The translations under genes were made by a program, and so were the position numbers. A DNA stretch of 64,000 nt from NCBI RefSeq assembly GCF_008806975.1, contig NZ_CP031728.1, positions 682,001 through 746,000 on the forward strand. The letters are read 5' to 3'. This stretch comes from Cellvibrio sp. KY-GH-1. GTDB lineage: Bacteria; Pseudomonadota; Gammaproteobacteria; Pseudomonadales; Cellvibrionaceae. The notes under the pieces were generated by a model that was not told the DNA's origin, searched no databases, and saw only the letters and a program-made list of their open reading frames with translations. The stretch's first letter is position 1. Every line of letters begins with the position of its first letter. Below, in pieces: positions 16,879 through 20,664 of this stretch.

Positions 16879-18877
16879 TCTGATTCAACTGGCTCCTGAG
16901 CTTGGCCAGTTCTCATTAATTCTCTCCTTGTGCTTGAGTGCTGCTCTGTTTGTCCTTCCGCTTAGCGGTACTTATCTCGGCAGTACACTGTTAATGCAAT
17001 CTGCCCGCTCATTGGCGACCGGTTTCTTTATTTTTGTCGCCTTTTCTTTTTGCTGTTTGGTTTATTCATTTATTCATGATGACTTTTCGGTGAAATATGT
17101 TGCGTCCAACTCCAATTCACTGTTGCCGGTGTATTACAAAATTAGTGCCGTTTGGGGGGGGCACGAAGGTTCACTGTTGCTATGGATTTTAATGTTGTCT
17201 GGTTGGACATTTGCGGTAGCTATTTTTAGCAAGTCGTTGCCTCTGGATATGCAAGCGCGAGTGTTATCTATTCTGGGATTTGTAGCCGTTGGTTTCTTGC
17301 TGTTCATTTTATTAACTTCCAATCCCTTTGACCGCATATTACCGATTCCACCGCAAGACGGTGGCGATTTGAATCCGTTGTTGCAAGATATTGGTTTAAT
17401 TATCCACCCGCCCGTGCTTTACATGGGTTATGTGGGCTTTAGTGTGAGCTTTGCATTTGCAATTGCAGCCTTGTTAACCGGCCGTTTGGATAGTGCATGG
17501 GCTCGTTGGTCTCGTCCCTGGGCAACAATGGCTTGGGGTTTTTTGTCAGTGGGTATTGCGTTGGGCAGCTGGTGGGCGTACTACGAGTTGGGTTGGGGTG
17601 GCTGGTGGTTTTGGGATCCGGTAGAAAATGCGTCCTTCTTGCCTTGGTTAATTGGCACAGCGCTAATTCACTCCTTGGCAGTGACTGAAAAGCGCAGCCT
17701 TTTTAAAAGCTGGACAATTCTGTTGGCGATCTTTACGTTTTCGTTGAGTTTGTTGGGGACATTTCTGGTGCGCTCCGGGGTATTAACCTCGGTTCACGCA
17801 TTCGCCAATGATCCTGAGCGCGGTGTTTTTGTGTTGGGTTTTTTACTGGTTGTGGTGGGCGCATCATTAACGCTCTATGCGTTGCGTGCGCCAGTAGTGA
17901 AAGGTTCGACCGGTTTCGACTGGTTTTCCCGCGAGACATTATTGCTGGGTAATAATATTTTGCTCACCATTATTATGATCATGGTGTTGTTGGGCACTTT
18001 GTATCCGTTAATTGCCGATGCCCTGAATCTTGGAAAAATATCCGTAGGCCCTCCTTACTTTAATTTGTTTTTCCTGCCGTTGATGGGATTGTTGTGTCTG
18101 TTGATGGCGTTAGGCCCGATATCGAACTGGAAACGCACTTCGGGTAAACAATTTTTGCAGGTCTTATGGAAACCCTGGGTAATTAGCCTGGCGATTGGGT
18201 TAGCATTTCCATTTTTTTACCGCGATAAGTATGAAATTCTGGCGGCGTTGACAGTGTTTATCGCGAGTTGGATTTTTGTTGCGCTGTTTGCTGATCTTCT
18301 GTATCGCTTGCGCAATGCAGAGACGATTTTTTCTGGCCTGAAAAAACTTAGCTTGAGTTATTACGCTATGGTAATTGCTCACGCGGGCATCGCAGTAACT
18401 ACCGTCGGCGTTGGTCTCACCAGTATCTACACCGAACAGCGCGATATTCGAATGGAAGTAGGGCAGCACGTTGAGGTAATTGATTACGAATTTGTGCTGG
18501 AAAAGCTGGAACATATCGAAGGCCCCAACTATCAAGCCGAGCAGGCGCTGATTAAAGTCATGCAAGGCGGAAAATTTCTGCGCGAAATGAAACCGCAAAA
18601 ACGTCGCTATATTGCCACTGGCAGCACCATGACCGAAGTTGCTTTGGATGTAAGCTTGTTCCGTGATCTGTACGTTGCTATGGGTGAGCCGTTAACGGAA
18701 ACAGCCTGGGCAATGCGTGTGCATTTAAAACCATTTGTCCGCTGGATTTGGTTGGGAGCATTGATGATGGCGTTTGGCGCTGTGCTAGCTGTAGCCGATA
18801 AACGCTATCGTAAAGTAATTAAGGTAGACCAACAGGCATCGACAGAAGTGCCTAAAGGAACGTTAATCAATGAATAA
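16868..18877 (+). CDS. ccmF: cytochrome c heme lyase CcmF
   Basis: A 669-residue polytopic membrane protein with many hydrophobic segments and the WWD heme-binding domain near 242-252 (GWGGWWFWDP). It takes heme from holo-CcmE and ligates it to the CxxCH sites of apocytochromes together with CcmH. Motifs HPPVLYMGYVGF and LLGTFLVRSGVL are characteristic. It overlaps ccmE by 11 bases and ccmG by 8, so the genes are translationally coupled. Confidence 0.96.
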   Translation: MALDLIQLAPELGQFSLILSLCLSAALFVLPLSGTYLGSTLLMQSARSLATGFFIFVAFSFCCLVYSFIHDDFSVKYVASNSNSLLPVYYKISAVWGGHEGSLLLWILMLSGWTFAVAIFSKSLPLDMQARVLSILGFVAVGFLLFILLTSNPFDRILPIPPQDGGDLNPLLQDIGLIIHPPVLYMGYVGFSVSFAFAIAALLTGRLDSAWARWSRPWATMAWGFLSVGIALGSWWAYYELGWGGWWFWDPVENASFLPWLIGTALIHSLAVTEKRSLFKSWTILLAIFTFSLSLLGTFLVRSGVLTSVHAFANDPERGVFVLGFLLVVVGASLTLYALRAPVVKGSTGFDWFSRETLLLGNNILLTIIMIMVLLGTLYPLIADALNLGKISVGPPYFNLFFLPLMGLLCLLMALGPISNWKRTSGKQFLQVLWKPWVISLAIGLAFPFFYRDKYEILAALTVFIASWIFVALFADLLYRLRNAETIFSGLKKLSLSYYAMVIAHAGIAVTTVGVGLTSIYTEQRDIRMEVGQHVEVIDYEFVLEKLEHIEGPNYQAEQALIKVMQGGKFLREMKPQKRRYIATGSTMTEVALDVSLFRDLYVAMGEPLTETAWAMRVHLKPFVRWIWLGALMMAFGAVLAVADKRYRKVIKVDQQASTEVPKGTLINE

Positions 18878-19415
18878 GCAACGGTTATTGTTATTTATTC
18901 CGCTGGTAATTTTTGCAGTTTTGGTGGTGCTGTTTTGGCGGGGGCTCTCGCTGGACCCGAGTGAGATGCCTTCTGCGTTGCTGGATAAGCCTGTTCCCAA
19001 TTTTGAACTTGCCGTGGTGCCTGCGGAGGAAAACCCGGCTGGCTTATCAAAAGCGAACCAGGAAATGGTGCGGGGCAAGGCGGGATTGTTAAATGTCTGG
19101 GCTACTTGGTGTCTCCCTTGTAAACAAGAGCATCCATACCTCAATATTCTCAAATCGCAAGGAGTACCTATCTATGGTGTTAATTATAAGGACAATGCTG
19201 AGGATGCGCAGCGGTGGCTAGCTGAGTTGCATAATCCTTATGTGTTTTCTGTGTTGGATGACGATGGTCGCTTGGCATTAAACCTTGGTGTATTTGGATA
19301 TCCAGAAACTTATGTGATCGATAAGCAGGGCGTTATTCGCTATAAACATATTGGTATCGTGAACGAAAAAAATTGGAATGAAACTATCAAGCCAATCTAC
19401 GAAAGTCTTAAGTAG
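18870..19415 (+). CDS. ccmG: thiol:disulfide oxidoreductase CcmG/DsbE
   Basis: A 181-residue membrane-tethered thioredoxin-like protein, with an N-terminal anchor (about 5-23) and active site WCLPC (C81, C84). It keeps apocytochrome c heme-site cysteines reduced before heme attachment. The family's acidic GVNYKDN stretch and cis-Pro segment GYPETYV are present. It is the last gene of the first ccm block; an FNR-box/terminator palindrome begins 32 bp after its stop. Confidence 0.95.
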   Translation: MNKQRLLLFIPLVIFAVLVVLFWRGLSLDPSEMPSALLDKPVPNFELAVVPAEENPAGLSKANQEMVRGKAGLLNVWATWCLPCKQEHPYLNILKSQGVPIYGVNYKDNAEDAQRWLAELHNPYVFSVLDDDGRLALNLGVFGYPETYVIDKQGVIRYKHIGIVNEKNWNETIKPIYESLK

Positions 19416-19447
19416 CGCTCACTAGCCAGGCTTAGCTATTCAAGTGG

Positions 19448-19478
19448 GGGATTTGATGCATATCAAATCCCTTTTTTT
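19448..19478 (+). terminator. terminator hairpin of ccmG, coincident with an FNR box
   Basis: A perfect inverted repeat GGGATTTGAT-GCAT-ATCAAATCCC (19448-19471) is followed by seven T, giving a good rho-independent terminator after ccmG. The same palindrome contains a perfect FNR site, described separately. Confidence 0.7.
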
Positions 19479-19493
19479 GTCTCCGCGTACACT
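19453..19493 (+). promoter_or_regulatory. class II FNR/Anr-type promoter of the micro-gene
   Basis: TTGAT-GCAT-ATCAA at 19453-19466 is an exact FNR/Anr consensus. A -10-like TACACT lies at 19488-19493, which puts the transcription start near 19500 and the box centre (19459.5) about 40-42 bases upstream, the position known for class II FNR activation. The next gene begins at 19525. The match and spacing are seen; activation at low oxygen is inferred. Confidence 0.72.
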
Positions 19494-19524
19494 GAAATTA
19501 TTGTAGGTAAATGCGGAGGTAAAT

Positions 19525-19668
19525 ATGTATTTGGATTTCGTAGTGGTGCTGGGGTTGATAATTGTTGCGCTAACTTGTGCGATGATTTCGTATGTTGGTG
19601 TTTATGCTTACAAACATATAAAGGCTGATATTGCTTCTCACCCAGAAGAAGCGACCAAAAAAATGTAG
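19525..19668 (+). CDS. 47-residue single-span membrane protein, CcoM-like candidate
   Basis: A short reading frame starting MYLDFVVVLGLIIVALTC and ending ATKKM. It holds one membrane segment (about 4-31) and a short charged tail (KHIKADIASHPEE). GCGGAGGT lies right before the ATG, and AGGTAAAT occurs twice in the leader (19505-19512 and 19517-19524). The arrangement (Met-aromatic-x-Asp then a single span then Tyr-Lys) resembles CcoM, the small subunit of cbb3 cytochrome oxidase in Pseudomonas stutzeri. That link is from memory and needs testing. The FNR-type promoter and the flanking cytochrome c maturation genes fit a respiratory role. Confidence 0.72.
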   Translation: MYLDFVVVLGLIIVALTCAMISYVGVYAYKHIKADIASHPEEATKKM

Positions 19669-19698
19669 GTTTGCGTGGAGCTGGAAAACAGCAGGCAT

Positions 19699-19727
19699 AA
19701 AAAAAGCCCCTAATGCGGGGCTTTTTT
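19699..19727. terminator. bidirectional terminator between the micro-gene and the tRNA genes
   Basis: Stem AAAAAAGCCCC/GGGGCTTTTTT with loop TAATGC. It is downstream of the plus-strand micro-gene and of the minus-strand tRNA genes, with A- and T-runs for both directions. Confidence 0.9.
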
Positions 19728-19739
19728 CATTTCTAATAG

Positions 19740-19816
19740 TGGCGGACCGGACGGGGCTCGAACCCGCGACCTCCGGCGTGACAGGCCGGCATTCTAACCA
19801 ACTGAACTACCGGTCC
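19740..19816 (-). tRNA. tRNA-Asp (anticodon GTC)
   Basis: A 77-nt cloverleaf on the minus strand: acceptor GGACCGG/CCGGTCC, D arm starting GTTCAGTTGGTTAGA, anticodon loop CTGTCAC, T arm GGGTTCGAGCCC, discriminator G and encoded CCA. It is downstream of tRNA-Val in the same transcript. Confidence 0.96.
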
Positions 19817-19854
19817 GCGGCAGTCAAAAACCACAATCACCTTATGAGTAAGAG

Positions 19855-19930
19855 TGGTGGGCGGTACAAGACTCGAACTTGTGACCCATGCCTTGTAAGG
19901 GCATTGCTCTACCAACTGAGCTAACCGCCC
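19855..19930 (-). tRNA. tRNA-Val (anticodon TAC)
   Basis: A 76-nt cloverleaf on the minus strand: acceptor GGGCGGT/ACCGCCC, D arm GCTCAGTTGGTAGAGC, anticodon loop CTTACAA, T loop TTCGAGT, discriminator A and encoded CCA. It is first in the two-tRNA transcript. Confidence 0.96.
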
Positions 19931-19971
19931 AAGATTTTCGCTTTTCAACGATCACCTTGTTGGTGGCGCGT

Positions 19972-19999
19972 ATTCTAATCATGTAAAACTATCGGTCAA
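19972..19999 (-). promoter_or_regulatory. sigma-70 promoter of the tRNA-Val/tRNA-Asp unit
   Basis: On the minus strand TTGACC (19994-19999) and TAGAAT (19972-19977) are 16 bp apart. The GC-rich ACGCGCC follows the -10, a discriminator typical of stable-RNA promoters under stringent control. Confidence 0.8.
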
Positions 20000-20157
20000 C
20001 CTTTTTTTAATGGTTTCGTCATTTTTTTGAAAAATATTCAAAAAATGGATGGAAAACAAACACTTGTGATTAGTTTTTGGGCTCGCAAGCAAGCATTCCT
20101 GCGATGACTCGGAGTTGTTATACTCGTCGGGAATTTTTTAGGTATCTGGAATAAGTC

Positions 20158-20664
20158 ATGTACAAGATTCTAATAAAAGTAATTGTTGTGTCGGGCCTGT
20201 TGTTGGCTTCACACCTGAGTTCTGCGGCTATTGAAGTGCATGAATTTAAAAATGAAATTGATCGTCAGCGCTACCAAAGCTTTATCGATGAAATGCGTTG
20301 CCCAAAATGCCAAAACCAAAATTTATCCGGTTCGGATTCTCCAATCGCGTTGGATTTGCGCAACGAGCTTTATTTAATGATTGAAGAAGGTAAGTCGGAT
20401 CAGCAAATTGTTGATTTTATGGTGGAGCGCTACGGAGAGTTTATTTTGTATCGCCCGCGCCTTAGTCCAGCAACAGTACTCCTATGGGCAGCACCGGTTT
20501 TACTACTGGTGTTTGGTGCGTTGTTTCTATGGTTGCTTGTGCGCAAGCGTCGCCGCTTGGCGCGAGAGGCGGAAACCGGGTTGTCTCAGCAAGAGCGCGC
20601 GCGTCTGGACGCTCTATTGAATGCTGACTCTAAAGATAAAGATAAAAAGGAGAAATCTAAATGA
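20158..20664 (+). CDS. ccmH: cytochrome c maturation protein CcmH (thioreductase part)
   Basis: A 168-residue protein with a signal peptide (1-24) and the RCPKCQNQ motif with redox Cys C48 and C51. One membrane segment lies near 107-127 and a charged Lys/Asp tail follows. It corresponds to the N-terminal half of E. coli CcmH (CcmL/CycL in other species); it reduces apocytochrome and works with CcmF and CcmI. It stands 742 bp away from ccmG, separated by the micro-gene and two tRNAs, so it must have its own promoter, which I could not pinpoint in 20000-20157. It overlaps ccmI by 4 bases. Confidence 0.93.
   Translation: MYKILIKVIVVSGLLLASHLSSAAIEVHEFKNEIDRQRYQSFIDEMRCPKCQNQNLSGSDSPIALDLRNELYLMIEEGKSDQQIVDFMVERYGEFILYRPRLSPATVLLWAAPVLLLVFGALFLWLLVRKRRRLAREAETGLSQQERARLDALLNADSKDKDKKEKSK

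Follow-up and report, generated by a model that had tools for sequence, protein, structure and literature searches.

An FNR-type promoter conserved ahead of a CcoM-like gene in Cellvibrio, with its box inside a probable ccmG terminator

CcoM is a one-helix subunit of the cbb3 oxidase of Pseudomonas stutzeri, and deletion of ccoM in this organism reportedly affects assembly or stability of the oxidase as well as denitrifying growth. Class II promoters that depend on FNR or Anr have a box centred near -41.5. In the stretch of Cellvibrio sp. KY-GH-1 DNA analysed here (the window; 64,000 nucleotides of contig NZ_CP031728.1), a short gene behind ccmG and the region ahead of it show likeness to both. 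The product shares with CcoM a start of the form M-[YF]-x-D, one hydrophobic stretch and colinearity over 30-33 residues, and eight of the nine loci that score over the curated cut-off for CcoM (all but L055) have an FNR-type box and a TAnnnT hexamer at the spacing seen in the window, 21-22 nt. It differs from CcoM in its longer charged tail (47 versus 36 residues), in scoring under the equivalog cut-off, and in the position of its gene between ccmG and tRNA-Asp/tRNA-Val/ccmH, whereas eight over-cut-off loci showed no such neighbours within 1.5 kb. The upstream region resembles a class II FNR/Anr promoter in having an exact box, no -35/-10 pair and a weak -10 at the class II distance; it departs from such promoters in that, at 8 of the 19 loci of the genus, a longer stem with the operator at its centre follows the upstream gene. 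The features of the region are as follows, in window coordinates.

18870..19415, plus strand: ccmG (dsbE), thiol:disulfide interchange protein, end of the upstream ccm run (TIGR00385, 180.6 bits, cut-off 123.15)
19448..19471, no strand assigned: hairpin with a 10-bp stem and loop GCAT, the FNR box within it; probably, together with the T run, the intrinsic terminator of ccmG (sequence, scan, fold, compensatory changes in relatives)
19453..19466, no strand assigned: FNR/Anr box TTGATGCATATCAA, exact match to TTGAT-N4-ATCAA
19472..19478, plus strand: T7 run behind the stem, terminator tail (sequence and terminator scan)
19488..19493, plus strand: -10-like TACACT, 21 nt past the box, with a predicted transcription start near 19500 (sequence)
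19515..19519, plus strand: ribosome-binding site GGAGG (sequence)
19525..19668, plus strand: CcoM-like gene, ATG at 19525, 47 amino acids, one hydrophobic helix by eye (homology, conservation, dN/dS)
19700..19727, no strand assigned: terminator-like hairpin between the CcoM-like gene and tRNA-Asp (plus-strand scan; fold of 19695-19735, -16.1 kcal/mol)
19740-19816, strand opposite to the ccm genes: tRNA-Asp
19855-19930, strand opposite to the ccm genes: tRNA-Val
20158 onwards: ccmH

A sequence-only reading of this DNA had described an exact FNR box, TTGAT-GCAT-ATCAA, with a TACACT hexamer at class II distance and a strong ribosome site, and we found all three in place. The box is the sole exact TTGAT-N4-ATCAA that a pattern search finds in the window; when up to one mismatch is allowed there are nine such sites against 3.72 expected, a number reached in 2 of 100 shuffles. 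With a gap of 21 nt between box and hexamer, a transcription start at 19500-19501 would place the box centre at about -40.5 to -41.5, so that the -10 stands at the distance that matches a class II promoter for this predicted start. The box is itself part of an inverted repeat of 24 bases at 19448-19471, GGGATTTGAT-GCAT-ATCAAATCCC, followed by seven T. This had been called a 24-bp palindrome plus seven T; repeat and T run are there, and the repeat is more exactly a 10-bp stem with a 4-nt loop. A promoter scan of 19000-20300 returned two matches, both on the minus strand, against 2.4 expected, and no -35/-10 pair on the plus strand, which is as expected of a promoter that requires an activator.

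Downstream of the gene, the A and T runs of the hairpin at 19700-19727 would, judged by eye, permit it to serve on both strands. The two tRNA genes (19740-19930), which run opposite to the ccm genes, part ccmG from ccmH. Apart from these tRNAs an Rfam search at E <= 0.1 gave just a sub-threshold Thr_leader match, which we judged to be due to chance.

The 47-codon open reading frame is a real gene. Its product is present in 26 of 57 searched genomes (its own included), and the gene is found in 19 of the 21 genomes of the genus. Over the first 37 codons, synonymous differences outnumbered non-synonymous ones in all of 13 hand-picked pairs, despite more than threefold more non-synonymous sites; dN/dS was 0.01-0.10 in 11 of these pairs and undefined in the other two, where synonymous sites were saturated. 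The frame was open in all 17 loci checked, and none of the other five frames was free of stops in more than two of them. We conclude that the gene is under purifying selection.

We did not find the gene in two genomes of the genus, G003 (99% completeness) and G008. In the first of these, a stretch with ccmG, tRNA-Asp, tRNA-Val and ccmH (L105, G003:C211) lacks both an exact box and the CcoM-like frame; ccmG is tandemly duplicated there. In the second (L103, G008:C420), the box, an extended stem (six outer pairs, of which two are G-T as judged by eye) and the hexamer TAAACT are all kept behind ccmG, and the CcoM-like frame is absent, reflecting either a recent loss or an assembly fault in this 79% complete genome.

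The surroundings of the gene are shared within the genus. A search for box and frame between ccm genes in related genomes had been suggested as a check, and they do recur, with ccmG directly upstream in 16 of the 19 genus loci. Within 1.5 kb downstream, the tRNA-Asp/tRNA-Val pair is present in 14 of 19 and ccmH likewise in 14 of 19, some of the misses being contig ends. At eight over-cut-off loci from other families of the order (the A2 set, see below; six of them also read for frames), a search within 1.5 kb turned up no tRNA and none of ccmF, ccmG and ccmH; box and gene therefore seem to have stayed together while their neighbours changed.

To assess conservation of the promoter we scored a box where there was at most one mismatch to TTGAT-N4-RTCAA no more than 200 nt from the start codon. 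Genomes with a match in the 57-genome search (26) or in a search of 145 relatives (56) came to 59 together, 46 in a first set and 13 held out; L060, L063, L065, L072, L073, L075, L076 and L077 were omitted as repeats of genomes already included. In the first set the box was present at 42 of 46 loci, 27 of them perfect at all ten TTGAT/ATCAA half-site positions, while the inner tetranucleotide took 35 different forms in the 42. The box starts 66-98 nt before the start codon at 37 of these loci and 120-176 nt at the others. TAnnnT occurred 21 or 22 nt past the box at 40 of 42, against a background of 0.36 loci per gap (gaps 0-45 outside 20-23). Counting any box, box plus TAnnnT at 21-22 was found at 41 of 46 loci and in none of 1085 control windows (overlapping, 200 nt, drawn from the 46 loci), 24 of which had a box alone. 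The box was absent at L021, L022 (87 nt from a contig end), L055 and L061, and TAnnnT at 21-22 was absent despite a box at L026 and L069 (best box) and, among the held-out loci, at L111 and L114.

Since the box pattern and the 21/22 gap were chosen after the 46 loci had been seen, only the 13 held-out loci are an independent test; all 13 had the box and 11 had box plus TAnnnT at 21-22. Over all loci the figures are 55/59 for the box and 52/59 for both elements, many of the genomes being related so that these counts are not independent events. A bound class II activator would be expected to leave such traces: half-sites that are kept, inner bases that vary freely and a spacing that is fixed. 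We conclude that the FNR-type promoter of the CcoM-like gene is conserved. Conservation of frame and box in relatives, on which the sequence-only reading had staked its claim, is thus borne out by 19/21 genus genomes and 55/59 loci respectively. Outside the family the box was found at 9 of 11 loci and both elements at 8 of 11, from which FNR control looks old for the CcoM subunit. At one locus, L051 (G136, reverse strand), a frame for a Crp/Fnr-type regulator with C-x2-C-x5-C (by eye) immediately precedes the CcoM gene, and two FNR-type boxes lie ahead of that gene.

With regard to the identity of the protein, the best NCBIfam match was the CcoM model NF041600 (E 8.2e-6, positions 1-33 of 34), so that the CcoM-like layout that had been claimed is matched from residue 1; the score of 26.2 bits falls short of the 40 bits set as curated cut-off, and we accordingly use the name CcoM-like and do not count the protein among the formal members of NF041600. 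The second match, to another membrane protein family (TIGR03745), scored 18.9 bits with a cut-off of 52.5. No Pfam family was over its cut-off (best DUF2976, 15 bits against 28.2), and a PDB search with the single sequence returned nothing at E <= 10. We then worked with two alignments, A1 from 16 of the 26 loci of the 57-genome search, and A2 from eight of the nine loci over the NF041600 cut-off in the 145-relative search, all in other families of the order. All 16 members of A1 match NF041600 at E <= 0.1 and 13 match TIGR03745 weakly, from which part of the NF041600 signal is that of a generic membrane helix. The M-Y-x-D start is kept in 16/16 rows of A1, and the tail past the helix is variable.

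Searched against the PDB, A1 had chain 5djq_N on top (E 0.01) and A2 gave the same chain (E 8.2e-18); we take this chain, a putative uncharacterized protein in its PDB entry, to be CcoM of the P. stutzeri cbb3 oxidase. A direct hhalign comparison of A1 with A2 gave a probability of 97.2 and E 3.6e-11 (for a single comparison), colinear from Met1 with residues 1-32 against 1-32. Among the 145 relatives, 56 gave a match, with scores from 67.7 down to about 20 bits; in the other 89 no CcoM match was found at E <= 0.01 with a short profile of limited sensitivity. Nine of the 145 passed the cut-off, one of the 45 matching in the family of the window (genus included; G070) and 8 of the 11 in the rest of the order. 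The profile comparisons indicate that the window protein is a remote homologue of CcoM and probably its orthologue. It can be seen that the observation made in the sequence-only reading is confirmed and that its interpretation, a likely CcoM identity, is supported.

The same genome encodes the partners that such a promoter and such a protein would call for. One protein scores 278.6 bits with the Fnr model NF008365 (cut-off 228) and contains C-x2-C-x5-C near its start as well as ETVSR, which we take to be marks of the oxygen-sensing Fnr; such a regulator is thus encoded. A cbb3 operon is present, with ccoN, ccoP and ccoG over their cut-offs and the ccoO, ccoQ and ccoH frames assigned by position only; the frames in the ccoQ and ccoH places matched no NCBIfam family at E <= 1e-5. 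An exact box (G000:C1:5576623-5576636) ends about 157 nt ahead of the ATG of ccoN. It has no TAnnnT at gaps of 19-24, the best hexamer being CAAAAT at 22, and the ccoN promoter may therefore work differently. Co-occurrence with ccoN was rejected as a test of the oxidase link because ccoN is near-universal (140/145 relatives).

Throughout the genome there are 30 exact boxes, 20 of them inside frames of more than 100 codons. A control with the reversed pattern (1 match per strand against 30) was set aside as evidence, since TAG/CTA in the reversed pattern depletes it in coding DNA. One further exact box outside frames of more than 100 codons (L031:1501-1514, that is G000:C1:1069231-1069244) is followed exactly 21 nt later by TATACT and is likely to mark another Fnr-dependent promoter.

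The stem around the box begins 32 nt past the ccmG stop codon, and with G+C-containing pairs, a T run and a position behind a gene it has the makings of an intrinsic terminator. The terminator scan reads it as 12 pairs (4 G-C) at 19446-19473 followed by the T run, and the fold of 19440-19480 is -16.1 kcal/mol. In 19000-20300 the scan lists two sites, against a shuffle mean of 1.3, and so proves nothing by itself. We counted a stem as extended where five or more of the seven positions outside the box form Watson-Crick pairs. Such a stem is present at 8 of 19 genus loci (L001-L004, L009, L010, L012 and L015), and among the 30 exact boxes in the genome only that of the window is extended by at least five pairs. 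The sequence-only reading had the box coincide with a ccmG terminator; stem and T7 are indeed present, and on these two counts (8/19 and 1/30) the overlap lies outside the conserved core. At the stem-bearing loci the outer pairs at positions 1, 2, 5 and 6 vary on both sides, that is, with compensatory changes. Permutations that swapped flanks were as good in 9 of 20000 cases for the eight stem loci and 29 of 20000 for all 19, with kinship ignored. The T run is T7 in L001-L004 and T6 in L010, and its longest form is 2-4 in L009, L012 and L015.

Half of the genus loci with ccmG directly upstream (8/16) have no extended stem, so that a terminator role would be optional at best. On a tree built from ccmF/ccmG pieces of 16 of the 19 genus loci (L011, L016 and L023, with no ccmF/ccmG upstream, were left out; of the two ccmG copies of L017 the first was used) two changes are required to account for the stem. 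L017, which has no stem, is nested among L001-L004, and the second stem-bearing group joins at an unresolved fork. The hairpin extension is younger than the conserved promoter of box and -10. In G001 about 3.9 kb separate ccmG from the gene, and the box is kept and the stem lost; this case and that of G008, in which box and stem persist behind ccmG, would fit a ccmG terminator. At L017 (184-1365) two tandem copies of ccmG stand ahead of the CcoM-like gene.

We think it very probable that the CcoM-like gene, probably the Cellvibrio orthologue of ccoM, is transcribed alone, under a class II promoter that depends on FNR (Anr). As oxygen falls, iron-sulfur FNR would dimerise and bind the box centred about 41 bases ahead of the predicted start, where it would substitute for the missing -35 and recruit RNA polymerase to the weak -10 (TAnACT). 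The resulting short message would be translated into a one-helix membrane protein whose C-terminus, from its charges, is predicted to be inside. This protein may then join or stabilise the cbb3 oxidase; upstream of the oxidase operon, too, stands an exact FNR box. In the species of the window and a subset of the genus, ccmG transcription probably also terminates at the stem that surrounds the box, and ccm readthrough would then be kept from blurring the oxygen switch.

An alternative is that the gene encodes a small FNR-controlled membrane protein that has only the one-helix layout in common with CcoM and serves some other low-oxygen function. The sub-threshold NF041600 score, the weak match to a different helix family, the variable tail and the failure of the single-sequence search to find a solved relative would all sit well with this. 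Set against it are the colinear match from Met1 with the invariant M-Y-x-D start, the E value of the profile-profile comparison, and the box with TAnnnT that eight of the nine over-cut-off loci also carry, and we consider it very improbable. It might also be that the box serves another activator of the Crp/Fnr family, for example of the Dnr or FixK type, in place of the oxygen-sensing Fnr; factors of both types can use TTGAT-N4-ATCAA too, and the genome holds three further matches to the Fnr model. These are weak, at 26.3, 36.1 and 45.6 bits against 228, with only one match in four passing the cut-off, and we give this alternative a low probability.

As for the hairpin, it could be an extended operator, or arise from chance flanks, and not terminate ccmG. 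The short T runs of L009, L012 and L015, the stemless loci next to ccmG and a terminator count close to the shuffle mean point that way, whereas the compensatory changes at the outer pairs, the T7 and T6 runs of the other five loci and the absence of such extension from the exact boxes elsewhere in the genome argue for a terminator; we regard the non-terminator reading as rather doubtful. A bolder version of the terminator role would have the 24-base repeat act as a composite element, DNA operator and RNA terminator in one, at which low-oxygen Fnr activates the CcoM-like gene while blocking or sharpening the ccm end. Cytochrome c maturation would thereby be coupled to supply of an oxidase subunit, and within the genus the RNA stem would have arisen by selection about an operator that was there before it. 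This we put forward tentatively, as an unlikely proposal.

The preferred reading, a CcoM-like gene under an FNR-dependent class II promoter, extends the CcoM family into the bacterial family of the window, where the NCBI curated cut-off would miss 44 of 45 matching genomes, as against 3 of 11 in the rest of the order. It also supplies a rule by which such genes may be sought: a short frame starting M-[YF]-x-D, behind an FNR box with TAnnnT 21-22 nt past the box. An operator set within a stem offers a small, testable example of a single sequence that is read at two levels. The finding is modest but solid. A known family of oxidase subunits has a branch here that its curated model scores under the cut-off; the FNR-type promoter of this branch is strongly conserved, and locally operator and probable terminator have come to share one repeat. 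What precedes the CcoM-like gene resembles a switch for low oxygen, a similar one is present in most relatives that we examined, and in some of them the hairpin around it could double as the stop signal of the preceding gene.
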